DNA of 64,000 nucleotides from Candidatus Obscuribacterales bacterium (GTDB lineage: Bacteria > Cyanobacteriota > Vampirovibrionia > Obscuribacterales > Obscuribacteraceae): positions 1 through 64,000 of the forward strand of contig JAGVKG010000038.1 in assembly GCA_020050685.1 (NCBI GenBank), in the 5' to 3' direction. The notes below the pieces were generated by a model. It worked only from the letters and a program-made list of their open reading frames with translations, was not told the origin of the DNA and did not search any database. How positions within the stretch are numbered: position 1 is the stretch's first letter; every line of letters begins with the position of its first letter. A program made the position numbers and the translations under genes. Below are positions 40,307-56,440 of this stretch, piece by piece.

Positions 40307-41083
40307 CTAGATTCTATTTTTTATTTTCGACTTTCTGCGATAAATGAATATTGTCGCGACGATAAGACCGACCGCCGCCACTACCAGCAGTATCACTTTC
40401 CACCAGATAATTACTTCATAAGTGGCTTCCAATTCATTGTGCTGGCCGACATATAAGCGCCAATTGACAGTTTTGCTTGCCTGGTCCAAAGCACCATTGG
40501 TTGCCAGTGCTGGTGTGGGTGTTGTAATAAACAGATTTATGCTCAACTGTTCGCTGCGGGGTAGAGCTAGTGCCTTAATCCAACCAGCAGGCAAGACAAG
40601 TTGCTTGGACAGTGCATTTGGGGAAAGATCTATATCGTAACTAATTTCATAGATCTTCCCAAGCAAACTTTCTCGTTCTTGAACTTGGAAAAATCTTGTC
40701 GTTGCGGGAGCAGTTTTGTTGGTAGCGGCCGTCGCTCCGTAATCCAATGCCAATTGTGTTAGTTGGTAGGTGAGCTCTTGTTCCAGATCCGGCAGCTTTC
40801 CTGGTTCCACATGTCCTGATACCACAAGTTGATTTGCCGCACGTTGTTTGTATTTCCAGCCGCGCGCTTTTGCCATTGTGGCCAAGCGCGCCCAGAAATC
40901 CTCAGATGGAGCTTGCTCAAGACTGAGATAGGATGAAAGCTGTGGATCAAGCACGAACCATTCGACAAAGTCTGCCGAATAATCAGGATTGACGTTGATC
41001 TTTAATTCGATTTCCGAGCAGCCGGTCACGAAAATCATTGCGACAAATGCTGCCAAACAAAGTGAAAGTGAGCGTACTCTCAT
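40307..41083 (-). CDS. LppM/DUF3153-like membrane-anchored lipoprotein
   Basis: The 258-residue protein has a lipoprotein signal with lipobox VTGC (Cys about 22), then IELKINVNPDYSADFVEWFV. That start, followed by an extracytoplasmic beta-rich domain of about 190 residues and a C-terminal transmembrane helix (VILLVVAAVGLIVATIFIY) with a basic tail, is the layout of the LppM (DUF3153) family known in cyanobacteria and mycobacteria. The function of that family is not clear; mycobacterial LppM affects envelope lipids. Its ATG overlaps the stop of the upstream lipoprotein gene by four bases (ATGA), so the genes are translationally coupled. Confidence 0.78.
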   Translation of the reverse strand: MRVRSLSLCLAAFVAMIFVTGCSEIELKINVNPDYSADFVEWFVLDPQLSSYLSLEQAPSEDFWARLATMAKARGWKYKQRAANQLVVSGHVEPGKLPDLEQELTYQLTQLALDYGATAATNKTAPATTRFFQVQERESLLGKIYEISYDIDLSPNALSKQLVLPAGWIKALALPRSEQLSINLFITTPTPALATNGALDQASKTVNWRLYVGQHNELEATYEVIIWWKVILLVVAAVGLIVATIFIYRRKSKIKNRI

Positions 41084-41616
41084 TGCTTGTTACCAGGAAG
41101 ATGGATAGCTTCGAAGCCGGCTTGCTCAAATTTGGTGCCAACCTTTCCTTGTTCGGAAAGATTGACGAGGCGGAAGCCGTTGCCATCGTAATCTTGTCCT
41201 TCCTTGAGGGAAATCCAGGATTTTTTGTCCGCCTGATAGAAGCGAATTTCACTTAAGTGCCAAATCCCAGGACTAAAATCTACGGTGGTTGGGAAACTTA
41301 GCACCATGATGTCATTTTGGATTTGCGGCTTTATTTCCAGCTTTGCAGATGTAATTGGCAAATCCGAAATTGTTGTCGAGACTGATTTGTCTAGTGTCAA
41401 TTCTACCTTTTGGCATGAGAGTAAATGGCTGTCGATTATTCTCAGCGAAAATTTGAGTTCATTGCCGGCATAAGCTTGGCTGATTACGGCCTTGTCTTGC
41501 GCGGTTAGCAAATTGTCCGGCGGTTTCTTTGTGCAACCGGCGATTGGCAAAACAAATAAGAAGCCAATTGCTAGACGAGCTATATTGACAGTACTAAAGA
41601 CTTTATTTGGCGTCAT
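41080..41616 (-). CDS. Lipoprotein of unknown function
   Basis: The 178-residue protein has a lipoprotein signal (LAIGFLFVLPIAGC, Cys about 28). The mature part is beta-rich and not recognised; patterns such as VELTLDKSVSTTISDLPITS and WHLSEIRFYQADKKSW suggest an Ig-like sandwich. It is the middle gene of a three-gene operon: the TPR gene ends 12 bases before it and the LppM-like gene overlaps its stop. The three products, all exported, probably act together at the membrane surface. Confidence 0.7.
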   Translation of the reverse strand: MTPNKVFSTVNIARLAIGFLFVLPIAGCTKKPPDNLLTAQDKAVISQAYAGNELKFSLRIIDSHLLSCQKVELTLDKSVSTTISDLPITSAKLEIKPQIQNDIMVLSFPTTVDFSPGIWHLSEIRFYQADKKSWISLKEGQDYDGNGFRLVNLSEQGKVGTKFEQAGFEAIHLPGNKQ

Positions 41617-41628
41617 GAACTCGTAGTC

Positions 41629-42402
41629 TTATTGCTGCGACGATAATTTTGCTGTGAAGCCTAAAGCAATTTTACACTCATCGTCAGAATTTTGTAGGTC
41701 GGCAATTGACTGCAATATTTCCGGTTCGTGGTATTGCTTGATTTTTGTTGCTTTGTTGTAAACGGAAATTGCGTCAAGTGCATCTGGGACCATAGCGCTG
41801 TAGCGCGTCAAGGCGTTTGATGCCAAATAGTAATTGCCTGATGCTGATAACAATGTACCAATTTCTCTCCAGCCTTGTAATTCGGGTTGCGTGCTGGTTA
41901 CTGATAAACAGAACTCATTGAGAGCGGCCAATTCCATGCCATGTGTGAGCAGCTCCGCTGCTAATTGATAATGGATGTTTCCAGGCAAATCGTCATCTGA
42001 ATCTTCGAAGTTGACTGATGCCGGGTCATGAACATCCTGTTCAAGCCTGAGTGCGAGCAGTCGCGATTTTACTTCCAGCTCAAACGAGCTGGAATGAGCG
42101 GCTCTCTGGTATTCCTTCATTGCTTGATCAATGTTTCCATTGGCTGCTAAGTAGCGAGCCAAATTTTTGCGTGCTTCTTTATCCTGTGGGACCACATCCA
42201 AGAGTTTTTGATAGGCAACGATGGCTTTCAGTGTACGCGTCTTTACTTCCTTGGCACCACAGGTGGTGCCAACCTCTGTGGCATTTTCTGCCCAGGCTGA
42301 AGGAAGCGAGAGCGACGAGGCCAGAATTAAAGACAGCAAAATCCAATGGCGGCGCTTTGCCCCACTGGAAGTCATTTTTGCGCTGTATTTGAAATTCTCC
42401 AT
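41629..42402 (-). CDS. Secreted TPR-like protein
   Basis: The 257-residue protein has a signal peptide (WILLSLILASSLSLPSAWA) and two or three TPR-like repeats (about 55-105: KAIVAYQKLLDVVPQDKEAR, LARYLAANGNIDQAMKEYQR), followed by further helical repeats (QLAAELLTHGMELAALNEFC). It is first in the operon with the two lipoproteins. The DNA for residues 45-50 (GTTCGA) contains the 18-bp palindrome GGCACCACAGGTGGTGCC (42253-42270), a sequence that recurs in two other places in the window. Function unknown. Confidence 0.75.
   Translation of the reverse strand: MENFKYSAKMTSSGAKRRHWILLSLILASSLSLPSAWAENATEVGTTCGAKEVKTRTLKAIVAYQKLLDVVPQDKEARKNLARYLAANGNIDQAMKEYQRAAHSSSFELEVKSRLLALRLEQDVHDPASVNFEDSDDDLPGNIHYQLAAELLTHGMELAALNEFCLSVTSTQPELQGWREIGTLLSASGNYYLASNALTRYSAMVPDALDAISVYNKATKIKQYHEPEILQSIADLQNSDDECKIALGFTAKLSSQQ
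42253..42270. repeat. 18-bp palindrome GGCACC-N3-GGTGGTGCC, copy 1
   Basis: GGCACCACAGGTGGTGCC lies inside the secreted TPR-like gene near the start of the mature protein. Fifteen of 18 bases are shared with copies at 45463 and 47731. Perfect 8-bp arms. Confidence 0.6.
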
Positions 42403-42726: not shown

Positions 42727-45423
42727 TTGTCTCGCCAAACTAAATGTTTGCAATCTGCAAGTTTGCAAGCCAATAGTTTCTTCGCAAGAGTTGCAAAATC
42801 GCTGGCAATGGCAGCGGTTCTCTTTGCCTTGGCGGTATTACCAATGGTGCCGGCCTTCGCGCAAGAAGTACCGGATCTTTCTAAACTCAACGATCCTGCA
42901 TTGATTGTGGCCGGAGAAAGAACGCTTACGATAGTTCCGGGTGTGCAGGTCAAACAAGGAACTTTAGTTATTCCAATCAGACCTGTGGCAGAACGGTTAT
43001 TATCTGATCTTGACATTGACTCGTTCAATCAAACAATTACAGTCATTCGTGCCGACGATCGTGCCGAACTAAATTACAACGGCAGGACAACAATTTTGAA
43101 GCTTTCCAGCTTCAATCAGGGACCACAGCCAGATGCTAACTTAATCGATTGGACTCCCGGCCGAGAGGCGGTACCGCAAGCCTTGCTTGAACGCTTGTTC
43201 AATGTATTCGTATCAGTTGATCCAAACAAAAACGAAGTGGCTGTTGTGCCTAATTCCGCTACCTTTGGCGAAGCGCTAACCTCTTATCACGTTGAGAAGG
43301 CAAAGGAACCAGCTAAGGAACCATTTAAGTTGCCGGCGTTCAAACTAAATGCAGTGCAATATGACAGTTTGATCAACCGCAACACTGTATCTTTTCTCGG
43401 ACACACAACATCCGGACGTGTTAACGCCCAAGTTGGGCAAACCATGGTTAATTGCTATGGGCAATATTTGGGTTCGACGTTCGGTCCGGGTTGGCGCTAC
43501 GGCATGGGTGGTGTAAATATCATTCGTCCTTCTTTTGGCCAAATACAAATTGGCGATTATGCCTTACGAACCGGCGGACTATTTGCCTCAGGACTTTTCC
43601 GTGGTGTTTGTACGGAAAGAGCTTGGGGGCGTGCTACTAAAATCGGCTTCCAAATCGGACAATTGCAAAACTCCACGCAATACGTTGGTATTCAAACTCA
43701 ACGCCCGGTGTTTAAACGTAATAATGTGCTGGCATATTTTTCCTGGGACTCGAGAGACTTTCGTCATTCAGCTCAACTCTGGAAGAACCATTGGTTCAAG
43801 ATTGGTGCTGGAACCGGTGGCTATCAAGACTCAAAAGTTTTGCCCAAGCCGTTGAGCCATGCGCCAGGCACTCCCGACACTCCGATTCAGTTTATCCCGG
43901 GCAAAGCCTACATGTCGTATTTCTATGTACGTGATGAATTCGATCGCTTTAAGGGCAATTTGCATGCGACCACGAACTTCGACTTCGGCGGGTCGTCGGC
44001 CAAATTTGATACTCGCAGCATTCTTGAGCGATTCCACACCTCGAGCGTTTTTGTCTTCCGCAACCACACGACATTGTTTAAGCGAATTACTTTCTCTAAC
44101 TTAGTTCAACGCGGCGGACCGCATTGGCGCACTTTGGACATTTCCAATGTTTATCGCAACCAATTCTTGATGAATGAAGGGATAACGCTCAAGCTCCTGC
44201 AAGGAGTTTCCACGTATGCTTCCTACCAGATGACTCATCCGACACAATCAGGACGTACGCGCGACATCACCAAACTCTATACGGCTGGAATCTCTTTCCA
44301 TAAGTGGCCAAACTACCTGCCGGAAGTAAGCTTTAGCACCAACGTCACTCCTGTAAAAGGTGGCGCTTCGCAATTCTTCAATACCTTGATTTTCAATCAA
44401 AAAATCTTGCCTTTGCGAACCACGTTAAATGGACAGTGGTTCTATGCAAATAATGGCGAGAACAATACACCCAACCAAATCATGATGATGACTTCGAGGA
44501 CAGCGCTATGGCGTGGCGTGGCTAGCACGGCCATGATGCAGTGGTCCACACCGTCGACGACTAACTGGTTGATTGGTGCGGAAACAGGTAACTTATTCGG
44601 TACATGGATAAAAGGAACATTCTCAATCGGTGAACTTAAGGCACCGGATCAAATTCAGCACAACGTCAATGCTGGTCTGTCGCTCTTTATTCCTTACATC
44701 AATCAGCGCGCCGATGTGAACTTTTCTCGCTCCAATAACTTCGTTCAAGTATTGGTGAATCTCAGCGGCTTTGTCGGACGTGGTCAAACACCATTGTCTC
44801 AATATGGACAGCCGCAAATTCCCATTAGGCCAATGGGTACAGTCACTGGCCGCTTCTATATCGATAATGATTTGTCCGGCACGTTTGATCCAGCTATCGA
44901 CAAACCTTTGCCCAACATGCGCGTGATTGCATCCGGTGCCGTGGTGGCAAGGACTGATGCAGAAGGGAAATATATAGTCAAGGGATTGCCAAAAGGCTTC
45001 CTCTCTTTCACTACTGATTTGGATGCGATACCAGCCCATTTGGCTTTCTTAAATAACACGTCCCAAGACACATTCATCTTGCCAGGAAAAACAAAGGTGA
45101 TTGATTTCCGCTTTGGAAAATTCGGACATATGGCTGGTCGGGTCAAAGCAGATGGTCCTGTGCCTAAGGGAGCGTTGCGCGATATCCGTATTTATGTGGT
45201 CGGAACAGATCGCGACAGCCTGACTGACGAAGAAGGCAAATTCACTATCAACGACATCAGCCCAGGTAAATATGTTGTGCGCATGGACCCGGACTATGTC
45301 TCACCCAATTTGGAAATTCTTGAGGGTGAAGCACAGGTAACGGTCAAGCCGGGAACCCGAGTAGCTGACATCAGCTTCGTCGTGAGAGAGCGTCCAAAAG
45401 AAATAGAAGAGAAGCGATTCTAA
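42727..45423 (+). CDS. Usher-like outer-membrane beta-barrel protein
   Basis: The 898-residue protein starts at a TTG right after an in-frame stop. It has a signal peptide (cleavage AFA/Q, about 45) and a domain like copper amine oxidase-N/STN folds at about 55-170 (GTLVIPIRPVAERLLSDLDI). A long region of alternating polar and hydrophobic strands follows (about 200-690), consistent with an outer-membrane barrel. IQIGDYALRTGGLFASGLFR (about 273-292) resembles the usher block 'lGD...ts.lF.S..FrG'. The last 190 residues are two small Ig/carboxypeptidase-regulatory-like domains (VTGRFYIDNDLSGTFDPAID; GRVKADGPVPKGALRD), in the position of usher C-terminal domains. It meets the PapD-like gene tail-to-tail, with a 4-base stop overlap. 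Usher assignment is inferred, not certain. Confidence 0.6.
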   Translation: MSRQTKCLQSASLQANSFFARVAKSLAMAAVLFALAVLPMVPAFAQEVPDLSKLNDPALIVAGERTLTIVPGVQVKQGTLVIPIRPVAERLLSDLDIDSFNQTITVIRADDRAELNYNGRTTILKLSSFNQGPQPDANLIDWTPGREAVPQALLERLFNVFVSVDPNKNEVAVVPNSATFGEALTSYHVEKAKEPAKEPFKLPAFKLNAVQYDSLINRNTVSFLGHTTSGRVNAQVGQTMVNCYGQYLGSTFGPGWRYGMGGVNIIRPSFGQIQIGDYALRTGGLFASGLFRGVCTERAWGRATKIGFQIGQLQNSTQYVGIQTQRPVFKRNNVLAYFSWDSRDFRHSAQLWKNHWFKIGAGTGGYQDSKVLPKPLSHAPGTPDTPIQFIPGKAYMSYFYVRDEFDRFKGNLHATTNFDFGGSSAKFDTRSILERFHTSSVFVFRNHTTLFKRITFSNLVQRGGPHWRTLDISNVYRNQFLMNEGITLKLLQGVSTYASYQMTHPTQSGRTRDITKLYTAGISFHKWPNYLPEVSFSTNVTPVKGGASQFFNTLIFNQKILPLRTTLNGQWFYANNGENNTPNQIMMMTSRTALWRGVASTAMMQWSTPSTTNWLIGAETGNLFGTWIKGTFSIGELKAPDQIQHNVNAGLSLFIPYINQRADVNFSRSNNFVQVLVNLSGFVGRGQTPLSQYGQPQIPIRPMGTVTGRFYIDNDLSGTFDPAIDKPLPNMRVIASGAVVARTDAEGKYIVKGLPKGFLSFTTDLDAIPAHLAFLNNTSQDTFILPGKTKVIDFRFGKFGHMAGRVKADGPVPKGALRDIRIYVVGTDRDSLTDEEGKFTINDISPGKYVVRMDPDYVSPNLEILEGEAQVTVKPGTRVADISFVVRERPKEIEEKRF

Positions 45424-46538
45424 TCAGGTTGCTTACCTTTGTCGGCTGATGGCTTCGCTGCTGGCACCGTAGGTGGTGCCTTGTCGGCTGGCTTGCTTTG
45501 AGTCGGAGTCTTTTCTTTGCTTGCTTTGTCTGCCGGTTGTGCAGGCGCTTTGGCCTTTTCTGTCTTTGGACTTGGTTGATTAGCCGGCGCTGGTTTCTGG
45601 GGCGCTACCACCTTGCCTTGGGTTGTCTTTTGCCCAGGCTTGGGCGCGGCTCCTTGAGCCTTGGAAGCAGGTTCTTCTTCTTTGGATTTTGTGGTGGCAA
45701 TTGTTTTTGGTTGCACATAGTCGAATGAAAGCCTGCCTCTTTCCACGCGGCCGAGACTTACGTCTAAATCCGTATTGACTATAGCTTCATACTTGCCTGG
45801 TGGCAGTGGTGCATCAATCGGAAAGTCGCGAATGCCGATGGAATCTCGCAGCACGACAGAAAGATCATTGAGATCCTTCATGTAAACTGTCTGACCGGCG
45901 CTATCCTTAACTTGCAAATTCCCCTTAGGGCGAACGTGAGTATTGCCGTCATTCTTAATGGCAATCTCGATCCTGGCTGGATTTCTGCCGTCCGGTGCTA
46001 CGTAGCGCATGGATTCCAGTGAAGGTTTTTTTTCTGCCGGCGGGACATTTATATATGTGAGAGAACCCATTAGTCCCTGTGGAACAAGCTGACCCATGCT
46101 GCGTTCTTTCACCGGAGGAACGATGATTCGTTGGCGGAATAACAAGCTCGTCAGATAATCGCCAGGCTTGGCGGTCGTTGGTACCTTATAAGTTGCACGA
46201 ACAAGCTGAGTCTGTCGCGGCTTTATAACAAATTCAGATGGACTGGCTTCTACCCAGCTAGAGGCGGAATACTCATAAGTGCCGGGCTTGGGAGTCATTA
46301 GACCACCGCGCGTGCTGACCTTCCAGTCGTAAACCAGAACCTGAATACGCAAATTACTCGTGCTGGAACAATTGGTCACGGCATAGACAACCGTTTTTTC
46401 CGTTCCAGGCAAAAGGGTCTCTTCTACCTTAGCCGGGGACAAGCCCATATCGAAGGCAAAAAGACTTGGGCTGGCATAAAGAAATAAAAGCAGAGCGCAG
46501 ATGACTAATTTAGATGCCTTGATCATTTTGTTTGTCAT
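45420..46538 (-). CDS. PapD-like periplasmic pilus chaperone with extended C-terminal tail
   Basis: From the ATG at 46538 the product has 372 residues. After a signal peptide (ALLLFLYASPSLFA) comes a PapD-like Ig domain: LSPAKVEETLLPGTEKTVVY, VTNCSSTSNLRIQVLVYDW, SSWVEASPSEFVIKPRQTQL and VRATYKVPTTAKPGDYLTSL. This matches the N-terminal domain of archaic-type fimbrial chaperones (proline-glycine turn, SP.eF.l.P, VR, pGdY). A second Ig domain covers about 165-280. The last 100 residues are a Pro/Lys/Ala low-complexity tail unusual for these chaperones. It lies downstream of eight same-strand secreted proteins with pilin-like ends. The DNA near codons for APPTVP carries palindrome copy 2. Confidence 0.72.
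   Translation of the reverse strand: MTNKMIKASKLVICALLLFLYASPSLFAFDMGLSPAKVEETLLPGTEKTVVYAVTNCSSTSNLRIQVLVYDWKVSTRGGLMTPKPGTYEYSASSWVEASPSEFVIKPRQTQLVRATYKVPTTAKPGDYLTSLLFRQRIIVPPVKERSMGQLVPQGLMGSLTYINVPPAEKKPSLESMRYVAPDGRNPARIEIAIKNDGNTHVRPKGNLQVKDSAGQTVYMKDLNDLSVVLRDSIGIRDFPIDAPLPPGKYEAIVNTDLDVSLGRVERGRLSFDYVQPKTIATTKSKEEEPASKAQGAAPKPGQKTTQGKVVAPQKPAPANQPSPKTEKAKAPAQPADKASKEKTPTQSKPADKAPPTVPAAKPSADKGKQPD
45463..45480. repeat. 18-bp palindrome GGCACC-N3-GGTGGTGCC, copy 2
   Basis: GGCACCGTAGGTGGTGCC lies in the low-complexity C-terminal tail of the chaperone gene, in a different reading phase from the copy at 42253 (here it encodes part of APPTVPA). Confidence 0.6.
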
Positions 46539-46725
46539 GCCCCAAACCGGACTCGAATTCAACACATAATTACGATATCACGTCTTGCCTACTGATTTTC
46601 TTGTCAATTTTAGGCACTCTTACTTAATGGATCGCCTATAGTCCTGCAAAAATTTTTCTGCACACGACAGCACCTTTTGATCCTCCTTGCGGACCAGCAA
46701 GAACGTCGGCTCAAATTTAGTTAGT

Positions 46726-46754
46726 CTGTCCTATAACCTTGTTGTCAAGGACAG
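46726..46754. repeat. 3' hairpin after pilin-like gene 1
   Basis: CTGTCCT and AGGACAG form a 7-bp stem around a 15-nt loop; CCTTG/CAAGG is an alternative inner stem. It lies 34 bases past the stop of the gene ending at 46789, between it and the chaperone gene. No U-tract. Confidence 0.4.
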
Positions 46755-46788
46755 TATACAACTCGGCAACAAATTTTGCTTACTTGAA

Positions 46789-47535
46789 CTAAGGACCGGT
46801 ATAGATTTCAAATTGCACGGCAATTGTAAAGTTGCCGGTGCCGGTGTCGTTAGTTGGTGCCCAGATGAATCCTGTCGGAACGGCAAAAGTCACTGTGTCT
46901 TGCACGTAATTATCAGTACTGGCCAGACTGCCTGAATTAGAGGGTTTGACGCTATAAGAATCAAATTGATCGGCAGAATCTGATACGGCGGCAATCGTGC
47001 CACTGTTCAGTTCGGCGAGTGTGTGCGTGCCATCAAACATGGTGCCGTAGCTGTGACCGGAAGAGTTTCCATTGCTACCAGCTGTCACAGTACCGTTGCC
47101 TAAAGTGACAAATGTCAATTCAGCACCATCGCCGCCGGCCAAATCTGTTCCGTCATAACTAATATTTGTCGCTGTGTAGGAAGAAACAGAAGCAGAAACG
47201 TGACATTTGACATTGCCGCGTTCGCGCAAGGAAAACGAAGCAATAGAAGAGGCGCCATTGCCGGAAGCTAATGCGCCATAGTTGACGGAGCCGGCAAAGT
47301 TTCCTGCTGGCACTGCTGGAGAATCACCATCCAAAGCAATTGAAGTTCCGGTTTGTCCTGGCGCTGTAGTCAAACTTTTGGTTGGTGAACCAAACAAGCC
47401 AACTGCACCAGATGCGCTGCCTGACAGAGTTAAGGTACCTATTGAAGTTACCGGTGCTGACGTTGAGAAGAACGCCACCGCCAAACTTGCGGCAACGCTC
47501 ACCAGCGAAAGAAATTTGCGACTTGTCAACAGCAT
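46789..47535 (-). CDS. Pilin-like secreted protein, subfamily I, copy 1
   Basis: From the ATG at 47535 (GGAG ten bases upstream) the product has 248 residues, the same as its neighbours. After the signal peptide comes IGTLTLSGSASGAVGLFGSP, then a beta-rich domain with one Cys in RERGNVKCHVSASVSSY, a block NISYDGTDLAGGDGAELTFV, and a C-terminal strand NFTIAVQFEIYTGP. Mature N-terminal and C-terminal strands of alternating residues are what a donor-strand-exchanged fibre subunit needs, and the gene adjoins a PapD-like chaperone. Four near-identical paralogues and four more distant ones follow. No known pilin family is recognised by sequence, so this is inference from context and pattern. Confidence 0.65.
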   Translation of the reverse strand: MLLTSRKFLSLVSVAASLAVAFFSTSAPVTSIGTLTLSGSASGAVGLFGSPTKSLTTAPGQTGTSIALDGDSPAVPAGNFAGSVNYGALASGNGASSIASFSLRERGNVKCHVSASVSSYTATNISYDGTDLAGGDGAELTFVTLGNGTVTAGSNGNSSGHSYGTMFDGTHTLAELNSGTIAAVSDSADQFDSYSVKPSNSGSLASTDNYVQDTVTFAVPTGFIWAPTNDTGTGNFTIAVQFEIYTGP

Positions 47536-47730
47536 GATCTTAGGTCTCCATCGGCGAACAGCTTGTCTGATAAAGCTGACACCTAAATTTTTCTGCCACA
47601 CAGGATCAACCTGGGATAGCAAGTGTATATCTGCTTGTAAGAATTGTCTAGGCGATTTTGAAAAAAATCAGCCGTTATCGGTCGCTAAATGCATATAACT
47701 TCTTTTCATCTTCAATCGAGTTCATCATCA

Positions 47731-47809
47731 GGCACCGCCGGTGGTGCCCTTGTTCCGCTTGGCAACCAAATGAAGATGATAAAGTACGTTAGCGTTTGCC
47801 AACGCTAGC
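47731..47809. repeat. Palindrome copy 3 and 3' hairpin after pilin-like gene 2
   Basis: Positions 47731-47748 read GGCACCGCCGGTGGTGCC, the third copy of the 18-bp palindrome and the only intergenic one. Positions 47788-47809 form a nearly perfect 9-bp hairpin GTTAGCGTT-TGCC-AACGCTAGC, 24 bases past the stop of the next gene upstream. Confidence 0.55.
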
Positions 47810-47832
47810 AACAATTGAGAGACTGCAACTTC

Positions 47833-48579
47833 CTATGGACCGGTATAAATCTCAAATTGCACAGCAATAGAAAATGTACCGGTGCCCGTGTCATCAGTTG
47901 GAGACCAGACAAATCCTGTTGGTATAGCAAAAGTTACTGTGTCTTGCACATAATTGTCCGCACTTGCCAGACTGCCGCTATTTGACGGCTTGGTGCTATA
48001 AGAATCAAATTGATCCTCAGAATCTGAGACGGGGGCAATTGTGCCACTGTTCAATTCACTGAGTGTGTGAGTGCCATCAAACATGGAACCATAGCTGTGA
48101 CCAGAAGAGTTTCCATTGCCACCAGCTGTAACAGCGCCGTTGCCCAAAGTGATAAATGTCAATTCCCCACCATCGCCTCCGGCTAGAGCCGTGCCGTCGT
48201 AACTAATATTGGTTGCGGTATAAGCGGAAACAGAAGCAGAAACGTGGCACTTGACATTGCCTCTTTCACGTAAGGCAAACGAGGCAACCGAGGGTGTGCC
48301 ATCACCAGAAGCTAACTGTCCGAAATTAACTGAGCCAGTAAAGTTTGCTGCTGGTGCTGCCGGTGCGTCACCATCCAAAGAGATAGATGTACCTGTTTGT
48401 CCTGGCGCTGTTGTCAAGCTTTTGGTTGGTGAACCAAACAAACCAACTGCACCAGATGCACTTCCGGAAAGGGTCAACGTACCCATGGAAGTAACTGGAG
48501 TTGAAGTGTAGAAAAACAACGCTGCTAGCAGTGTGCCCACTGCCGCCATCATATATAAGTTGCGTCGCGCTGCCATCAT
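47833..48579 (-). CDS. Pilin-like secreted protein, subfamily I, copy 2
   Basis: The 248-residue product has GAGGA eleven bases before its ATG, a signal peptide (LLAALFFYTSTPVTS), then MGTLTLSGSASGAVGLFGSP, the single Cys in RERGNVKCHVSASVSAY, NISYDGTALAGGDGGELTFI, and C-terminal FSIAVQFEIYTGP. It is very close to copy 1 over its whole length, at DNA level too. The strongest variation lies in short loops (for example GTLASGDG versus QLASGDG regions). Tandem near-identical copies favour recombination between them, which could vary a surface subunit. Role as a fibre subunit is inferred. Confidence 0.65.
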   Translation of the reverse strand: MMAARRNLYMMAAVGTLLAALFFYTSTPVTSMGTLTLSGSASGAVGLFGSPTKSLTTAPGQTGTSISLDGDAPAAPAANFTGSVNFGQLASGDGTPSVASFALRERGNVKCHVSASVSAYTATNISYDGTALAGGDGGELTFITLGNGAVTAGGNGNSSGHSYGSMFDGTHTLSELNSGTIAPVSDSEDQFDSYSTKPSNSGSLASADNYVQDTVTFAIPTGFVWSPTDDTGTGTFSIAVQFEIYTGP

Positions 48580-48700
48580 CGGGATTCCTCTTTGCTTCCT
48601 GGTGCCCTTGCGAGCTGATACCTGTCATTTCTCCTATACCAACCGTTTTAAAAGCACAAACTCCTTGGCAACAAAACTTCTGCCAAAAGTTTTTGCTGTT

Positions 48701-48845
48701 GCGGAGAAGTTGCCTAACGGGCAACTTCGGAGCGTTTAGCTTAAACGGCGAAGACTCAGCGCAACGCAGCGCCGCGAGGAGCGGTGCGGAGTGAAGCGCG
48801 TCCACGCGCGGAGAAGTTGCCTAACGGGCAACTTCTCCGCGCTTA
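48701..48845. repeat. Hairpin-repeat copy D flanked by 28-bp direct repeats, with a 16-bp perfect stem
   Basis: A 28-bp sequence beginning gcggagaagttgcctaacgg occurs at 48701-48728 and again at 48808-48835. Between them is the GAGGA-loop hairpin GCGCCGC-GAGGA-GCGGTGC (48769-48787; one G-T wobble). The second repeat is part of a perfect 16-bp stem, GCGCGGAGAAGTTGCC (48806-48821) with GGCAACTTCTCCGCGC (48827-48842), which ends 5 bases from the stop codon of the pilin-like gene at 48847. Confidence 0.75.
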
Positions 48846-48846
48846 C

Positions 48847-49596
48847 TTAAGGATCCCGATAAATCTCAAATTGCACGGCAATAGTAAATGTACCAGTGCC
48901 GGAATCATCCGTTGGTGACCAGACAAATCCCGTTGGTACAGTAAATGTGACAGTGTCCTCCACGTAATCATTGGCTGTCACCAAGGTGCCTGAAAGTGAC
49001 GGTTTGGAGCTATAAGAATCAAACTCGTCCTTGCCGGTGGCGACTGGTGCTATCGTGCCCGAATTTAGCTCGGCTAAAGTATGTGTGCCGTCAAACATTG
49101 CCCCATAGCTATGCGCAGCAGGATTGCCTTGAGCACCGGCAGTCACCGGACCATTTCCGAGCGTGACAAAAGTCAGTTCCGCTGCATCGCCACCGGCAAG
49201 TGCGGTTCCGTCATAACTAATATTGGTCGCAGTATAAGAAGAAACGGAAGCGGAGACGTGGCATTTAGTATTGCCTCGCTCTCTCATAGAAAATGAGGCA
49301 ATTGAGTTGCCACCATTGCCGCCGCCGAGTGTACCGAAATTCACTGACCCGACGAAATTCTGTGCCGGACTTGACGGTGTATCGCTATCTAGAGAAATAG
49401 ATGTGCCGGTCTGACCGGGCACTGTAATCAAACTCTTATTGGGAGAACCAAAAAAACCAACCGAGCCTGTGGCACTGCCAGTCAATGTTATTGTACCCAT
49501 GGAAGTGACCGGTGTTGATGTTGAAAATAATAGTAGCGTCAAGCCAGCAAGGATGACAGCAAGCCTCAAAAAATCTTGTTGCAAAGACTTCATCAC
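48847..49596 (-). CDS. Pilin-like secreted protein, subfamily I, copy 3
   Basis: A 249-residue protein with AAGGGG just before the ATG. The mature part starts MGTITLTGSATGSVGFFGSP, has the Cys in RERGNTKCHVSASVSSY, and ends FTIAVQFEIYRDP. It diverges more from copies 1, 2 and 4 in the loop regions (LGGGNGGNSIASFSMRERGN; NGPVTAGAQGNPAAHSYGA), while the framework is kept. A 16-bp perfect hairpin lies right after its stop. Interpreted as another fibre subunit variant. Confidence 0.65.
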   Translation of the reverse strand: MMKSLQQDFLRLAVILAGLTLLLFSTSTPVTSMGTITLTGSATGSVGFFGSPNKSLITVPGQTGTSISLDSDTPSSPAQNFVGSVNFGTLGGGNGGNSIASFSMRERGNTKCHVSASVSSYTATNISYDGTALAGGDAAELTFVTLGNGPVTAGAQGNPAAHSYGAMFDGTHTLAELNSGTIAPVATGKDEFDSYSSKPSLSGTLVTANDYVEDTVTFTVPTGFVWSPTDDSGTGTFTIAVQFEIYRDP

Positions 49597-49678
49597 CCCT
49601 TATCCCCGTTGGCAATTGCTTTGGTTAGCAAAAAGCAGACAAAGCCCCAAGACCATATCGAAAGATGGTTCGAAAATT

Positions 49679-49714
49679 AACAGGCCAACGCGGCTTACGG
49701 AGCGTTGGCCTGTT
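49679..49714. repeat. 13-bp perfect hairpin after pilin-like gene 4
   Basis: AACAGGCCAACGC (49679-49691) and GCGTTGGCCTGTT (49702-49714) pair perfectly around a 10-nt loop, 30 bases past the stop of the gene at 49745. The loop holds CTTACGGA, similar to the sequence flanking other hairpins of this region. Confidence 0.65.
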
Positions 49715-49744
49715 GAAACATGCTGAAAGTAATAACCGGCTACG

Positions 49745-50491
49745 CTACGCTCCTACATAAATTTCAAATTGGATAGCAATCGTGAATGTACCGGTGCCGG
49801 TGTCATCCGTTGGTGCCCATACGAATCCTGTGGGTACAGCAAACGTTACAGTGTCTTGTACATAATTGGTCGCGCTCGATAGGCTACCTGAATTGGAAGG
49901 CTTAACACTATAAGAATCAAAATCGTCCTTGCCGGTAGCAACTGGTGCTATCGTTCCGGTATTTAGTTCGTCTAAGGTATGCGTGCCATCAAACAGCGTG
50001 CCATAGCTGTGACCGGAAGAGTTGCCTTGAGCGCCGGCTGTAACTGCACCGTTACCCAAGGTAACGAATGTCAATTCTGCGCCATCGCCGCCGGCTAACG
50101 CTGTACCGTCGTAGCTTAGATTTGTTGCCGTGTAGGAAGATACAGAAGCCGAAACGTGGCACTTAACATTGCCGCGTTCACGTAAAGAAAACGATGCCAC
50201 CGAGTCTGTGCCATCGCCTGATGCTAATGTACCGAAGTTAACTGAGCCGACAAAGTTTGCGGCTGGGGTGGCTGGTGTGTCACCATCTAGGGCGATGGAC
50301 GTACCAGTCTGCCCGGGGGCTGTCGTTAAGCTCTTAGTTGGGGAGCCGAACAAGCCAACCGCGCCAGATGCACTGCCGGACAAAGTCAATGTGCCCATAG
50401 ACGTTACTGGTGTTGAGGTATAGAAAAATACTCCAACTAGGCAAAGGGCCGTTGCCAATACCGAAAGATACCTGCGCTTTGTTCTATTCAT
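49745..50491 (-). CDS. Pilin-like secreted protein, subfamily I, copy 4
   Basis: From the ATG at 50491 the protein has 248 residues; an upstream start at 50533 would add residues before the signal peptide. The mature protein starts MGTLTLSGSASGAVGLFGSP, with Cys in RERGNVKCHVSASVSSY and the end FTIAIQFEIYVGA. It matches copies 1 and 2 closely and shares the NAQGNSSGH-type loop (AGAQGNSSGHSYGT) and the ATGKD block (VATGKDDFDSYSVKPSNS) with copy 3, as if segments had been exchanged between copies. Confidence 0.65.
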   Translation of the reverse strand: MNRTKRRYLSVLATALCLVGVFFYTSTPVTSMGTLTLSGSASGAVGLFGSPTKSLTTAPGQTGTSIALDGDTPATPAANFVGSVNFGTLASGDGTDSVASFSLRERGNVKCHVSASVSSYTATNLSYDGTALAGGDGAELTFVTLGNGAVTAGAQGNSSGHSYGTLFDGTHTLDELNTGTIAPVATGKDDFDSYSVKPSNSGSLSSATNYVQDTVTFAVPTGFVWAPTDDTGTGTFTIAIQFEIYVGA

Positions 50492-50842
50492 ATCTCCTAA
50501 TCCTCTAACCCCCAATGTGATCCCTTGTGCCAATAAGAACGAAACTATAAAACAAGAGTGGTTGCGTAAGCCGGTTGCTTGCCACCTACAATTCAGGTCG
50601 GTAAAAAGTTCCCCTTAATAACCCAAACCAACCCCGAAGTACCGCCACTACTTGCTACTTGACATATTCCCGGATTACCGTTTTCTAAAACTGACTTTAT
50701 TGGACTGATTTCTTATATTCGTCTAATTAAGTCAAGTGGTATTCGGAAAGCTGCACTAGCTTGTGCTTCCTTGGTTTGTGGATTTGCGAAGATTGTAAAG
50801 TGGTGAGGTTTAGTCGGTAAAAAAACGCCGTTTTTGGCAGGT
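50492..50842. other. Intergenic region without a gene
   Basis: This 351-base gap between pilin-like genes 4 and 5 shows no convincing gene. A weak A/T-rich inverted repeat (aaaaacgccgttttt, 50821-50835) lies just past the stop of gene 5 and could act as a poor terminator. The rest is likely the promoter of gene 4. Confidence 0.4.
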
Positions 50843-51586
50843 TTAGGCGCCGGGCAAAAGCTCAAACTGAATGGAAATAGAAAAGTTTCCCGAGGCCGCA
50901 CCATTAATGGGCTCCCAAAGCAATCCGGTGGGAATCGTAAAGGTGGCAGTGTCTTCCACATAATTGTTGGAGCAACCTAAATTGGCCGCGCGGGAGGGCT
51001 TTTTGGAAAATGAGGCAAAGCTATCAGATCCTTCGCATACGGGCCCAATCCTGGCATTGTTTAGATCTGCCAAAGTCTCAGTGCCAGAATCAAATTTTGG
51101 TCCATAGCAATGTCCGGATGAATCACCATTCGAGCCAGCTGTGACCGTTCCGCAACCAATGCCAATAAAACTAAGGTCGGTGGCCAGACCTGATGTTAAT
51201 GGTTTGCCGTTAAAAGCTAAATTGGTGGCTGAATAAGAAGTAACCGATGCAGCTATGTGGCAACGGGTATTGGCGCGGGACTTAAATGATAAGGAAAGAA
51301 CACATGGTCCGTCCGTCCTCATCAGTTCGCCGACATTAATCGTGCCGACAAAATTACCAGATTGATCTGAATCAGTTGTGATTGTTGTCCCGGGCGGAGC
51401 ATTAATTACCGATGCTGTCGGGCTGCCAAATAATCCCACCTCGCTAACCACCAAGCCGGAAAGCGAAATTGCGCCCATACAGGTACTGGGACTTGCCGAA
51501 TAGAAAAACAGAGCCATCAGGCAGACCAAATTCAAATGATACTTGTTATTCAATATATATAGGATTGAATGACCGGTTCTTATCAT
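50843..51586 (-). CDS. Pilin-like secreted protein, subfamily I, divergent copy 5
   Basis: About 247 residues from the ATG at 51586 (no strong Shine-Dalgarno; the start is less certain). The signal peptide ends ASPSTC and the mature part starts MGAISLSGLVVSEVGLFGSP. It keeps the family framework with Cys in SRANTRCHIAASVTSY, NLAFNGKPLTSGLATDLSFI, SSGHCYGPKFDSGTETLADL and a C-terminal strand FSISIQFELLPGA, but has several extra cysteines (VLSLSF preceded by PCV, GIGCGTV, GHCYG, GPVCEG, LGCSNN). These could form disulphides absent from copies 1-4. It links the near-identical copies to the distant subfamily II. Confidence 0.62.
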   Translation of the reverse strand: MIRTGHSILYILNNKYHLNLVCLMALFFYSASPSTCMGAISLSGLVVSEVGLFGSPTASVINAPPGTTITTDSDQSGNFVGTINVGELMRTDGPCVLSLSFKSRANTRCHIAASVTSYSATNLAFNGKPLTSGLATDLSFIGIGCGTVTAGSNGDSSGHCYGPKFDSGTETLADLNNARIGPVCEGSDSFASFSKKPSRAANLGCSNNYVEDTATFTIPTGLLWEPINGAASGNFSISIQFELLPGA

Positions 51587-51906
51587 TAAAGGCAACCAGG
51601 GGATCTGTAGGAGGCAATGGCTGCCAAGGTCTTGAGTTCTGGCACAAACCGTTAATAGCCGGGGTTTGTCGAACAAGTCTCTTGGCAAGTAGCCGATAAT
51701 TATGCCTCAATCGAGCCTGCGGGTTGTGAAGTGGCGATAAGCTTCCGCGAAAATTTCTTTCATGTTGATCTAAAGGCCCAGCGAAACGCAGAACTGCGAG
51801 GAGCAGTTCGGAGTGAAGCGGGAGTACGTGCGGAGGAGCCGATAGGCGACGGAGCACATATATCAGGACCTTAAAGCGCGAACACGCGCTTTAAGGTCCT
51901 GTATAG
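51587..51906. repeat. Hairpin-repeat copy E and 16-bp perfect stem overlapping a stop codon
   Basis: No gene. Positions 51778-51820 match copy A closely; the hairpin GAACTGC-GAGGA-GCAGTTC (51791-51809) is fully Watson-Crick. Positions 51865-51880 and 51885-51900 form a perfect 16-bp stem (AGGACCTTAAAGCGCG / CGCGCTTTAAGGTCCT) with an AACA loop; the right arm contains the TAA stop codon and last codons of the gene ending at 51891. Confidence 0.75.
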
Positions 51907-52646
51907 GTCCCAAATTGAACGGTGAAGGAAAATGTCCCAGAAGCCGTGCCCGGTGCTGGACCGAGTTCCATGCCGGTTGGCACAGATACATAGATGGGCA
52001 GCTCGAGTGCATTATCCGGACTGTTGCTTGTGCCACCAATCGAAGCGGCTGGTGCTGCACAAATCAAAGTTGAAGATGCTGTACATCCACCGCGGGCTAA
52101 AGTGGCTAATGTGGTGCCACCAGTAAATGAGGAGTTGACTGAGACAGATGATGGGCTGGCGGCATTTGCTCCAGTAGTGGACAATGCTCCTGCCCAGACA
52201 TGAACAAATGTCCCGCCATCTTGATCGGTAACATCTTTGCCTTGGAAGCGCAAGCCGCGGCAACGGAAGGAAGACATTGATGCCACAAGTCTAAAGGCAC
52301 TGTTGGAACGCAATCTAATGCCAATCGTGGCAGGACATTCTTCGCCATCGCCTTTGGATAAGTCACCGAAATCTATAGAGGAGCCGAAGGCTTGATTGTT
52401 TGGTTGTGAACCAGAGGCAACACAACCAGTTCCTTTGTCCGCAACGGAAACGGTTCTGCCACCAGCGGCTGGCGGCGTGCCGGCAGAAAGTTGCACGAAC
52501 GTACCATACTGTCCTGTAATGCTGACGCTGGCACTTTGACCTTCAGCTTCCGGACAAATTCCCGGATAAACAATGGAATAGGCAAAGACAAGCGAGAGTA
52601 GAAGGCTTGATTGTAAAAACTTTCGTGCGTATCGTTTGTAGTACAT
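51891..52646 (-). CDS. Pilin-like secreted protein, subfamily II, copy 1
   Basis: The 251-residue protein has a signal peptide (SLLLSLVFAYSIVYPG) then SVSITGQYGTFVQLSAGTPP, a mature start different from subfamily I. The framework blocks are recognisable: SSIDFGDLSKGDGEECPATI, LRSNSAFRLVASMSSFRCRG, VTDQDGGTFVHVWAG, and the C-terminal FSFTVQFGTYTGP. Even-spaced cysteines (GTGCVAS, EECPA, FRCRG, GGCTAS, LICAAP) may form disulphides. Its last codons lie within a 16-bp perfect hairpin. Only two bases separate its start from the stop of the next gene upstream, so subfamily II genes are probably one operon. Confidence 0.6.
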   Translation of the reverse strand: MYYKRYARKFLQSSLLLSLVFAYSIVYPGICPEAEGQSASVSITGQYGTFVQLSAGTPPAAGGRTVSVADKGTGCVASGSQPNNQAFGSSIDFGDLSKGDGEECPATIGIRLRSNSAFRLVASMSSFRCRGLRFQGKDVTDQDGGTFVHVWAGALSTTGANAASPSSVSVNSSFTGGTTLATLARGGCTASSTLICAAPAASIGGTSNSPDNALELPIYVSVPTGMELGPAPGTASGTFSFTVQFGTYTGP

Positions 52647-52648
52647 AA

Positions 52649-53365
52649 CTAACCGCCCGGGAAAATTCCAACTTGCAATGTAATTTGAAAAATGCCTTTT
52701 GCTGCGTCTGACGTCGGTCCGATTGCCAATCCGGTCGGCACTGAAATTCTCAAAGGCACGAGCACGGCATTGTCCGTACTGTTAATTGTACCGCCAAGCG
52801 AAGGCGAGTCTCCTGAGGTAATGGCAGTGGACTGAGCATCAACTTGACCCTGGGTGATTTCGTCCAAAAAGACTCCAGCTTGGAAAAGGCCGGACACAGT
52901 TGAGCCTTGTGGATTGGAGCGCACACCGGTTGGCGTAGGAGAACCTGCTTGTATCGTAATGAAACTGCCTTTGTCGCCGCTTGGTCCAACATCAATATCC
53001 TTATATTGCAAATTGGTGGCAATGAAGTTGAAATTTGCTGCATTCAATTTATAAGTTGAGTTTCCCCGCATCATCAAACCAATGTTGACGACAATTGGTT
53101 CACCTGTGCCTAGCGAAAGCTCACCAAAGTCCACTATTTCTGCAAAATCCGAAGTGCCACCACCGGTAGACGTTACTCTTGCGCCAATGCTTGGTCCGGT
53201 GATTGTGATACCGGACTGGCCTCCGGCAGAACTTAAAGAGACAATAGCCGATACGCGTCCCGTATATGTAGCTTGGCTCAGACTGATTGCTTCTTGCAGA
53301 TCAGCAAAAAGCCAGAGTGAGGCTGCGGCTATTAAGGCGATTGGTAATTTGATTTGTGTTTTCAT
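52649..53365 (-). CDS. Pilin-like secreted protein, subfamily II, copy 2
   Basis: From the ATG at 53365 the product has 238 residues: signal peptide (ALIAAASLWLFADLQEAIS), then ATYTGRVSAIVSLSSAGGQS, VDFGELSLGTGEPIVVNIGL, MMRGNSTYKLNAANFNFIAT, and the C-terminal strand FQITLQVGIFPGG. Unlike copy 1 it lacks cysteines. The MMRGNSTYKL block corresponds to the RERGNVKCHV strand of subfamily I, which ties the two subfamilies together. An upstream start (53422) is less likely as it precedes the signal peptide. Inferred fibre subunit. Confidence 0.6.
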   Translation of the reverse strand: MKTQIKLPIALIAAASLWLFADLQEAISLSQATYTGRVSAIVSLSSAGGQSGITITGPSIGARVTSTGGGTSDFAEIVDFGELSLGTGEPIVVNIGLMMRGNSTYKLNAANFNFIATNLQYKDIDVGPSGDKGSFITIQAGSPTPTGVRSNPQGSTVSGLFQAGVFLDEITQGQVDAQSTAITSGDSPSLGGTINSTDNAVLVPLRISVPTGLAIGPTSDAAKGIFQITLQVGIFPGG

Positions 53366-53399
53366 TTTGGATTTATTGTCAATTGAAGCTCTGAATGAA

Positions 53400-54119
53400 T
53401 TAGGGTAGGGGAAAAACACCAAATTGTAGAATGGATGAAAATGTTCCAGGTGAGCCAGCTACAGTTGGCCCGAGCGCCAGACCGGTTGGTGCCACAATAA
53501 TCACAGCAAACTCAATGGCATTATTAGCAGAATTCATTGAGCCTCCCATTGATGGACTGGAACCGGCAATAACTTGTGTTGATGAGGCGTTCACCGAGCC
53601 TTGGGCTATTTGGTTAAATCCTAAACCGTCGCCATAAAGAACGGCGTTGATGTTTGATCCGGTTGGATTGGCTTGGTTGCCTGTACCAACAACCGTGCCT
53701 GCACCCAGTCGCAAGAAAGATCCGCGATCAGATGAGCCTTGCAGATCGACACCGCGAAACTGCAAGTTGGTGACGATCATGGAAATTTGCGAGACGGTGA
53801 CGACATAATTTTGGTCGCCACGTAAACGCAGTCCAATGGCTGCTTCCGCTGGTGCACCGTTAGTCACTTGGGCTAAGTCTCCGAAACCGATGGAGGCGGA
53901 AAAACCTGGCATGTCTGGCGGTTGTCCCGCTGCTGATGCACCAGCGCCACCATTTTTGATCATGACATTTGTGCCAGCCAAGGGCGGTGGTGTTCCGGAT
54001 GAGAGCACCAAAAAATTCTTTTCTGCATAGCAGGCATTAAGACTAAGGAAATAACAAGCGGCTGTTGATCCTAGGGCTATTAACAACTTGGTGCATTTCT
54101 GAGCAATCTTTGGCAGCAT
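53400..54119 (-). CDS. Pilin-like secreted protein, subfamily II, copy 3
   Basis: A 239-residue protein and the first gene of the array in transcription order. It has a signal peptide (LIALGSTAACYFLSLNACYA) and a short mature start (EKNFLVLSSGTPPPLAGTNV). The subfamily II framework follows: ASIGFGDLAQVTNGAPAEAA, LRLRGDQNYVVTVSQISMIV, DRGSFLRLGAGTVVGTGNQA and the C-terminal FSSILQFGVFPLP. It is the most distant from subfamily I and may be a tip or base subunit, but nothing in the sequence shows that directly. The gap to the next gene upstream is 289 bases. Confidence 0.58.
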   Translation of the reverse strand: MLPKIAQKCTKLLIALGSTAACYFLSLNACYAEKNFLVLSSGTPPPLAGTNVMIKNGGAGASAAGQPPDMPGFSASIGFGDLAQVTNGAPAEAAIGLRLRGDQNYVVTVSQISMIVTNLQFRGVDLQGSSDRGSFLRLGAGTVVGTGNQANPTGSNINAVLYGDGLGFNQIAQGSVNASSTQVIAGSSPSMGGSMNSANNAIEFAVIIVAPTGLALGPTVAGSPGTFSSILQFGVFPLP

Positions 54120-54408: not shown

Positions 54409-56322
54409 TTACTCTGGCTTCGATTTTTGCAAAGCATCTGTGACCAAGAGGGTCCCGCCAATCATTTCATTGAGCATCGAACGAACTGTTTCTTCTTTAT
54501 CTTCTTTGGCAGCTTCAAATAAGACGTTGAGATTTCTCACCAACAACTTATTGTCATATGGTTGGGGTTTACCGACAAAAATCTTCTTGTAAATAGTTTT
54601 GCTCAAGCCTTCTTCGGCAGTTAGAAGCTCTTCGAATAACTTTTCGCCGGGGCGCAGACCGACAATTTCAATTTGGATATCCTCGCCTGGGCGTAGGCCG
54701 GAAAGCTTAATTAGGTCATTGGCCAAGTCGAGCATCTTAACTGGTTCGCCCATATCGAGGACGAAAATCTCACCGCTTGATCCGAGTGCTCCCGCTTGTA
54801 TAACAAGCTGTACGGCTTCCGGAATCAACATGAAGTAACGAATCACTTCCGGGTGAGTCACCGTCACTGGTCCACCACTGGCAATTTGTGAGCGCCAGAA
54901 CGGCAAGACAGAACCACGGCTGTCGAGCACATTGCCAAATCGAACTGCAGCGTATTTTGTTTGTGAACGGCTGGAAAGATCTTGAACGATCAGTTCTGCC
55001 ACACGCTTGGTGGCACCCATTACCGATGTGGGGTTAACAGCTTTATCAGTCGAAACCAAAACAAAGGTCTCCACCTTGTAAGCATTGGCCAGTTCAGCCA
55101 AGTTTTGCGTGCCGGAAATATTGTTGGAAATTGCTTCTGGCACATTTTCTTCCATCAGGGGAACATGTTTGTGTGCAGCTGCGTGAAATACGACTTGCGG
55201 GCGGTGTTTTTCAAAAATGTTGACCATGCGCTGGTAATCACGGACATCAGCAATTATTGATGTGAGCTTGACTGGTTCAGGCAGGCGCTTCAGTTCATGG
55301 TAAATGGAAAAGATGCTGTTTTCGCCCTTGCCGAGCAAGAGCAATTCTTCTGGTTGGAATTTGATGATTTGACGACAAAGTTCCGAGCCGATTGAACCAC
55401 CGGCACCGGTAATTAGAATCCGGCGGCCTTCAATGTAACCAGCAATGGCCTTGGTATTCAATTCAACAGGTTCGCGTCCAAGCAAATCCTCAAGTGATAC
55501 TTCTCTTAATTGGTTGACGGACACTCTGCCATCAATTAATTCATAAAGCCCAGGAAGAATGCGAGTTTGTACTTCCGCATTGCGGCAAATCTCAACAATG
55601 CGGCGCACCTCCTGTGGTGGCGCCGAAGGAATGGCGATGATTACTTGATCAATAAACAGATTCTCTAAAAGTGCCGGCAGATCATCTGTCGTACCATAAA
55701 CTGTATGGTGACCAATGCGTGTGCGAATCTTGTGCGGATCGTCATCAATCAAACCGATAACATCAACACCAACATCCGGACGCTGTGACATTTCTCTTGC
55801 CACCATTTGTCCGGCTTCACCGGCGCCGACTACTAATGCTCTTTGACGAACCGGTTGACGCCAGTGGCGGCGTTGTCTATGTTCCGTTTCTAGGCGGCGC
55901 ATAACGCGCGGGCTGACCAAGAGTAAAAACGACAAACCTGATTCAATAAATATGATTCCGTACGATAGATGATGTGCTTCTAGCTTGAGAATTCCTAAAG
56001 CCCGTGCCAGCAAAACAATCGTTGTCACCGTCAGAACTGAAATTCCCAGCTCAGTGACTTCCGTCAATCCTGTATAGCGCCAAAGCCGTCGGTAGACACC
56101 GAAAAACCAATTAGCCGCCAAATGCAGGCAAACAAACAGTGGTGCCAAAACAACGAGCTGATCTAAATAAGTTTGTCCGATTGCACCATCAAAACGAATG
56201 GCAAAGGCACAAGCAATGGCGCAAAGCGCAAGTAATGCATCAAGAATAACTTGCAAAATGCGTCTTACGGGAATTTGCGTCCAGAGTTCGAGCATGAAAA
56301 CTTTTGCCTGCATTTTTAGCAT
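54409..56322 (-). CDS. CapD/FlaA1-type nucleoside-diphosphate sugar 4,6-dehydratase/epimerase
   Basis: The 637-residue protein has four N-terminal transmembrane helices (about 15-140), a CoA-binding-like Rossmann domain (ALVVGAGEAGQMVAREMS), and an extended SDR domain with ILITGAGGSIGSELCRQIIK. The active-site block KAVNPTSVMGATKRVAE has Met in place of Tyr, as in PglF/FlaA1/CapD. These inner-membrane enzymes make 4-keto-6-deoxy sugar nucleotides, for instance for bacillosamine-type or capsule sugars. It could supply sugars for surface glycans or glycosylation of the neighbouring fibre proteins, but that link is only positional. The ATG at 56322 follows a TTG; both are possible starts. Confidence 0.92.
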   Translation of the reverse strand: MLKMQAKVFMLELWTQIPVRRILQVILDALLALCAIACAFAIRFDGAIGQTYLDQLVVLAPLFVCLHLAANWFFGVYRRLWRYTGLTEVTELGISVLTVTTIVLLARALGILKLEAHHLSYGIIFIESGLSFLLLVSPRVMRRLETEHRQRRHWRQPVRQRALVVGAGEAGQMVAREMSQRPDVGVDVIGLIDDDPHKIRTRIGHHTVYGTTDDLPALLENLFIDQVIIAIPSAPPQEVRRIVEICRNAEVQTRILPGLYELIDGRVSVNQLREVSLEDLLGREPVELNTKAIAGYIEGRRILITGAGGSIGSELCRQIIKFQPEELLLLGKGENSIFSIYHELKRLPEPVKLTSIIADVRDYQRMVNIFEKHRPQVVFHAAAHKHVPLMEENVPEAISNNISGTQNLAELANAYKVETFVLVSTDKAVNPTSVMGATKRVAELIVQDLSSRSQTKYAAVRFGNVLDSRGSVLPFWRSQIASGGPVTVTHPEVIRYFMLIPEAVQLVIQAGALGSSGEIFVLDMGEPVKMLDLANDLIKLSGLRPGEDIQIEIVGLRPGEKLFEELLTAEEGLSKTIYKKIFVGKPQPYDNKLLVRNLNVLFEAAKEDKEETVRSMLNEMIGGTLLVTDALQKSKPE

Positions 56323-56440
56323 CAAGCCTGAAGATAACAGGGCTGATTGCCAGGGACATAAGAGGCATTATCTTAACATGTTTACAAGTGCCGATTGCCG
56401 CTCAACGAGACCGTCACAGCCGAGAAAGCTTAGGTGATTC

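Follow-up and report, generated by a model that had tools for sequence, protein, structure and literature searches.

A chaperone-usher-like locus with a plug-less usher-like protein and eight subunit genes in an Obscuribacterales bacterium

Can a cluster of secreted-protein genes that no usher, chaperone or pilin family model recognizes encode a complete fibre-assembly system, and can such a system work with an usher that lacks a plug? This question is raised by a 64,000-nucleotide stretch of contig JAGVKG010000038.1 (hereafter the window) from Candidatus Obscuribacterales bacterium, a non-photosynthetic relative of cyanobacteria in the Obscuribacter family. An initial annotation, made from the sequence alone, had proposed a divergent chaperone-usher-like system of a cyanobacteria-related lineage at positions 42727-54119. 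All open reading frames claimed for this region were found at the claimed positions, and fold searches, profile comparisons and gene-set conservation bear the proposal out. The locus very probably encodes a complete fibre-assembly system that works in a chaperone-usher-like manner and belongs to an unannotated branch with a plug-less usher. Its features are listed below.

40307..42402, minus strand: three genes divergent from the usher gene, possible accessories, in the same order beside the usher in the related locus L036
42727..45423, plus strand: usher-like outer-membrane assembly platform, 898 aa, TTG start (usher chains at Foldseek ranks 1-13; chaperone and subunit genes as neighbours in most related loci)
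42874..43284, plus strand: Cu-amine-oxidase-N-like N-terminal domain, residues 50-186, at the usher NTD position (PF07833, E 1e-4; AlphaFold2 pLDDT ~80-90 over residues 71-170)
43339..44778, plus strand: beta-barrel, residues 205-684, ~26 strands by DSSP, without Ig-like plug insertion (AlphaFold2 model)
43552..43605, plus strand: usher-like block GDYALRTGGLFASGLFRG, residues 276-293, with invariant G276 and G293
44836..45390, plus strand: two C-terminal Ig/carboxypeptidase-regulatory-like domains, residues 704-888, replacing usher CTD1 and CTD2 (PF13620, E 1e-8; AlphaFold2 pLDDT ~73-94)
45420..46565, minus strand: periplasmic PapD-like chaperone with a low-complexity C-terminal tail (hhalign against canonical cyanobacterial chaperones)
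46239..46241, minus strand: codon of chaperone Pro109, aligned with the superfamily-invariant proline and conserved in nearly every aligned chaperone
46789..47622, minus strand: subunit 1, major-type paralogue, donor-like N-terminus LTLSGSA, C-terminus GNFTIAVQFEIYTGP
47833..48579, minus strand: subunit 2, major-type paralogue, 80% identity with subunit 1
48847..49596, minus strand: subunit 3, major-type paralogue, 70% identity with subunit 1
49745..50533, minus strand: subunit 4, major-type paralogue, 77% identity with subunit 1
50843..51688, minus strand: subunit 5, minor type, 44% identity with subunit 1, donor-like ISLSGLV
51891..52646, minus strand: subunit 6, minor type, 26% identity with subunit 1, donor-like VSITGQY, counterpart in L036
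52649..53422, minus strand: subunit 7, minor type, 26% identity with subunit 1, donor-like ATYTGRV, counterpart in L036
53400..54119, minus strand: subunit 8, tip candidate, without donor-like N-terminal motif, ~9-residue alignment gap relative to the 51891 subunit

The usher and chaperone genes lie tail-to-tail, as first described, with a 4-base overlap; the chaperone measures 381 aa from a GTG codon or 372 aa from the ATG at 46538. The eight subunit ORFs (239-281 aa as longest ORFs) occupy 46789-54119 on the minus strand and are read from 54119 towards 46789, separated by intergenic gaps of 2-309 bases apart from one 23-base overlap, and the chaperone gene follows downstream on the same strand. 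Usher, chaperone and all eight subunits are single-copy, being found nowhere else in the host genome (4.2 Mb, 70 contigs), which contains no PF00577 usher. The genes at 40307-42402 encode probable lipoproteins of 258 and 178 aa and a 257-aa TPR protein resembling Tgl/PilW; the 178-aa and 258-aa proteins are confined to the host and L036 genomes, two of the 53 examined in the order, and the cassette may supply accessory lipoproteins. By eye, a gene coding for a CapD-like nucleoside-diphosphate-sugar epimerase/dehydratase (54409-56325) lies directly upstream of the subunit array.

Scans of the window proteins against Pfam and NCBIfam returned no match to usher, PapD or pilin families, none of 19 related ushers matches PF00577, and a profile search of PDB sequences with the usher retrieved Ig/carboxypeptidase-regulatory-like domains only. 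The AlphaFold2 model of the 898-aa protein, built on an alignment of 33 sequences (mean pLDDT 67, pTM 0.40), contains the usher domain set, namely a compact N-terminal domain (NTD), a barrel and, predicted with confidence, two Ig-like domains at the C-terminus (CTDs). When it was compared with the PDB using Foldseek, FimD/PapC chains filled ranks 1-13 (E 7.2e-20 to 1.5e-8), the best alignment spanning ~945 columns. These ushers of type 1 and P pili share the NTD, the barrel and two CTDs with the window protein, but theirs is a barrel of 24 strands closed by an Ig plug, and their sequence identity to it is ~10-12%. TM-scores were low (0.31), in keeping with uncertain domain placement, and barrel pLDDT ranges over ~37-81; the Foldseek result therefore backs the usher fold and not its detailed geometry. 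The strand number of ~26, against 24 in canonical ushers, was counted by hand from the DSSP assignment of a barrel with modest pLDDT. The usher-like GD...RG block pointed out in the initial annotation holds up well, as its two glycines do not vary in 33 relatives that represent at least eight families.

The protein could instead be some other outer-membrane barrel, such as a TonB-like receptor or a transporter with Ig domains, located by chance near Ig-like secreted proteins. The moderate confidence of the barrel, the missing plug and the presence of TonB receptors among the Foldseek matches (the first non-usher barrel is TonB-type, E 2.2e-6) would agree with this, but ushers lead by ~13 orders of magnitude, the window protein has the order NTD-barrel-CTD-CTD, and chaperone and subunit genes recur alongside the usher in many families. 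We consider this explanation scarcely credible. The preferred reading, that of an usher, also agrees with hhalign comparisons, in which window-clade ushers aligned with those of a second Obscuribacter-family clade (O2) at 99.7% over 757 columns and with those of groundwater Melainabacteria (f3) at 99.4% over the C-terminal 277 columns, while reversed and column-shuffled control profiles all remained below 1%. The plugged ushers of photosynthetic cyanobacteria (cyB, described below) in turn matched sigma ushers at 95.6% over 484 columns, plug and barrel included. What speaks against an usher is the absence of family-model matches, the low TM-scores and barrel pLDDT, and the weak hhalign match (43%, confined to the C-terminal domains) of window-clade ushers compared directly with sigma ushers.

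The Cu-amine-oxidase-N-like domain had been described as an extra N-terminal domain. Its match to the Cu_amine_oxidN1 model is below the cut-off in the window protein, and 12 of 19 related ushers match the same model. As its location is that of the usher NTD and related ushers share it, we rejected its being an addition; it is probably the usher NTD itself.

Profiles of the window-clade chaperones are homologous to those of canonical cyanobacterial (sigma) PapD-type chaperones (hhalign 96.3%, E 1.8e-9, 178 columns; controls <1%). A single proline is invariant throughout the chaperone superfamily (PMC4654587), with which Pro109 aligns. Family models reach little further: PapD_N matched 4 of 22 related chaperones (best E 7.6e-6), and a profile search of PDB sequences with the chaperone gave no match. 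The long low-complexity tail attributed to this protein is real and restricted to the window clade (A2). A two-Ig chaperone fold was modelled in the relative L046, as a subunit-chaperone read-through with one TAG read as Gly. The Foldseek matches of this model, among other Ig-domain proteins, included CfaA, CupB2, CsuC, PapD, FimC and Caf1M; in this single-chain proxy (pTM 0.41) the donor loop was disordered and strand complementation was not visible. At the position of the Arg conserved in archaic and alternative chaperones (CsuC Arg89, strand F1), the window chaperone has Leu (GDYL), while the plugged relatives mostly have Arg at or near this site (GESR, GEHR or GEYR), with a register uncertain by 1-2 residues. 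As to the paired basic anchors of classical chaperones (Caf1M Arg20 and Lys139), the window protein has a Lys in strand A1 (SPAK) and no clear G1 Lys.

The chaperone of L046 (12632-13606) deserves a separate remark. The top Foldseek matches of the model containing it are WxLIP proteins of Gram-positive bacteria (9i25, 9i1y). Among 22 relatives, 7 also gave a weak PF06030 match, and together these observations may point to a connection of usher chaperones with WxL proteins. WxLIP, however, is a Gram-positive surface protein without an usher.

In seven of the eight window subunits, a phi-x-phi-x-G-x-phi motif (e.g., LTLSGSA, VSITGQY) directly follows the signal peptide; this motif, its glycine included, is the donor-strand pattern of classical pilins. 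Residue alternation is a hallmark of donor strands (PMC4654587). The alternating C-terminal strand previously noted is well founded: seven of eight subunits score 7/7, with a mean of 6.75 against a mean of 4.8 and a maximum of 5.9 in 2000 shuffles. By these sequence patterns, seven of eight subunits would combine an N-terminal donor strand with a C-terminal beta-zipper. The conserved mature N-terminus (S.GT.TLSG) attributed to all of them is present in four or five subunits and differs in those at 51891, 52649 and 53400. Extension-less subunits recur in relatives: the chaperone-adjacent subunit lacks the 12-13-residue extension in all seven groundwater (f3) clusters, and in the second Obscuribacter-family clade three of three clusters have one such subunit each. 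A tip subunit would require just this, a single subunit per system that has no donor strand, which makes the 53400-54119 product a tip candidate; the exception is L036, where its counterpart has a weakly hydrophobic extension. Profiles of the window minor subunits matched those of groundwater subunits (82%, E 1e-5; subunit-chaperone control comparisons <5%). The profile search of PDB sequences gave one weak, irrelevant match (ThreeFoil) for the subunits.

Among the genomes sampled, usher-protein and profile searches detected usher relatives in 40 of 386 from the phylum. Within the class, 59 of 382 contain them, spread over at least seven families, and within the order 4 of 53 (6 of 53 by profile, two of these weak). 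The gene set is conserved: most related loci encode a barrel protein of 850-1100 aa, a chaperone of 270-350 aa and 2-5 secreted subunits with an alternating strand at the C-terminus. Some f45 loci (L131-L134) have an usher without a recognisable chaperone nearby, and in L132, L133 and L134 recognisable subunit genes are lacking as well. A related set also occurs in two photosynthetic cyanobacteria (L049, 5767-9912; L051, 10714-14244), representing there a second usher family, invisible to Pfam, which we call cyB. These ushers have in common with the window usher the CTD type, the adjoining chaperone and two subunit genes and the lack of a PF00577 match, but retain a plug and a long N-terminal extension (1176-1381 aa in total). 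In genome G091, a match of cyB type stands alongside a sigma usher.

Archaic (sigma) chaperone-usher operons have been reviewed in cyanobacteria (subunit CccS with its SCPU domain, chaperone CccP, usher slr0019; PMC4390875), and the window locus might be an ordinary operon of this kind, merely diverged. The phylum and the gene set are the same, and the chaperone profiles resemble each other. Against this, PF00577, PF00345 and PF05229 are all unmatched, and a branch with 100/100 support splits sigma ushers from the window usher, which moreover is plug-less and has carboxypeptidase-regulatory-like CTDs. The subunits also differ: the spore-coat-U domain (PF05229) is absent from the six scanned (those at 48847 and 49745, left out, are 70-77% identical to a scanned one), and profile comparison of the window subunits gave no match to sigma subunits. 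Finally, the chaperone has Leu in place of the non-classical Arg. On the separate usher branch, the subunit mismatch and this substitution, we rejected sigma-type membership, and a merely diverged sigma operon is highly improbable. The evidence continues to favour a distinct chaperone-usher-like branch.

To our knowledge, an internal plug seals every well-studied usher. In canonical ushers the barrel has 24 strands, the sixth and seventh of which flank an inserted Ig plug (PMC4356140); the plug closes the PapC channel (PMC8410936), and its deletion leads to very large pore openings (PMC10418385). In the window usher, both the AlphaFold2 model and the alignment are devoid of an Ig-like plug insertion, which is present in relatives of the same tree. 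Between the RG of the conserved block and a conserved glycine (G362 column), plugged relatives have 94-124 residues, a stretch in which an Ig-like plug can be made out by eye (e.g., YVKPTSLVRVTVNDNEPVTLSTYAGYYTL in L047), against 55-68 in window, O2 and f3 ushers and 32-34 in one gut group, the shortest plug-less one. The window usher is also ~100 residues shorter than plugged relatives; the plug domain has therefore not been relocated elsewhere in the protein. The initial annotation had held that a barrel without a plug domain would speak against an usher. The plug is indeed absent, but with plugged relatives in the same tree and ushers as the best fold match, its absence is a variant and does not refute usher identity.

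On the tree of 43 ushers, the plug state must change three times; branches with good support impose each change, and a single change suffices for none of the bootstrap trees. Since the plugged sigma and cyB ushers lie outside, this is most simply explained by three losses, and the plug appears to have been lost three times independently in this group, with the root and long branches leaving some doubt. Our search of the open-access literature found no natural plug-less usher. We would give an even chance to a functional chaperone-usher pathway whose ushers have three times dispensed with the plug and whose outer membrane is sealed in another way, for example by an occluding hairpin in a barrel of 26 strands or by periplasmic NTD/CTD gating. 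As a refinement, the plug may have been replaced, the stretch after RG being either a plug reduced in size or one more hairpin of a 26-strand barrel, with the role of gating the pore. The 55-68 residues retained by window-type ushers, against 32-34 in the shortest plug-less group, and the ~2 strands that DSSP gives beyond 24 are consistent with this; the pLDDT of ~35-65 in this stretch and the overall shortness of the protein, by which no whole domain has moved, are not in its favour, and we regard the refinement as tentative.

Donor-strand complementation followed by exchange at a plug-less usher is the most likely mechanism. Subunits would cross the inner membrane via Sec, and the chaperone would complete the unfinished Ig-like fold of every subunit with one of its own strands. 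The NTD of the usher, of Cu-amine-oxidase-N type, would then take up the chaperone-subunit complex, and the N-terminal extension of each subunit would displace the chaperone strand in the preceding one. The fibre is predicted to exit via the barrel with the motif-less subunit at its tip and the four near-identical subunits forming the shaft. The resting pore would be closed otherwise than by a plug, whether by a hairpin at the plug site, the periplasmic NTD/CTDs or a fibre that stays in the channel. The assembled fibre probably serves adhesion or biofilm formation.

These loci form a new chaperone-usher branch in Vampirovibrionia-type lineages (groundwater, gut, Obscuribacter). Among the open-access papers listed by our literature search, none joins an usher with Vampirovibrio, Obscuribacter or Gastranaerophilales. 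As the branch is missing from Pfam, NCBIfam and the searchable literature, the surface fibres of these bacteria have escaped notice; the host considered here has a complete fibre gene set that was previously unannotated. The usher plug is taken to gate the channel, and ushers that lack it but have plugged sisters pose the question of gating anew. Such natural sister pairs make the role of the plug and its possible substitutes directly testable. In the gut lineage, a second conserved protein of ~300 aa adjoins the chaperone (L048, 636-1547, and relatives); it is possibly an adhesin or a second chaperone.
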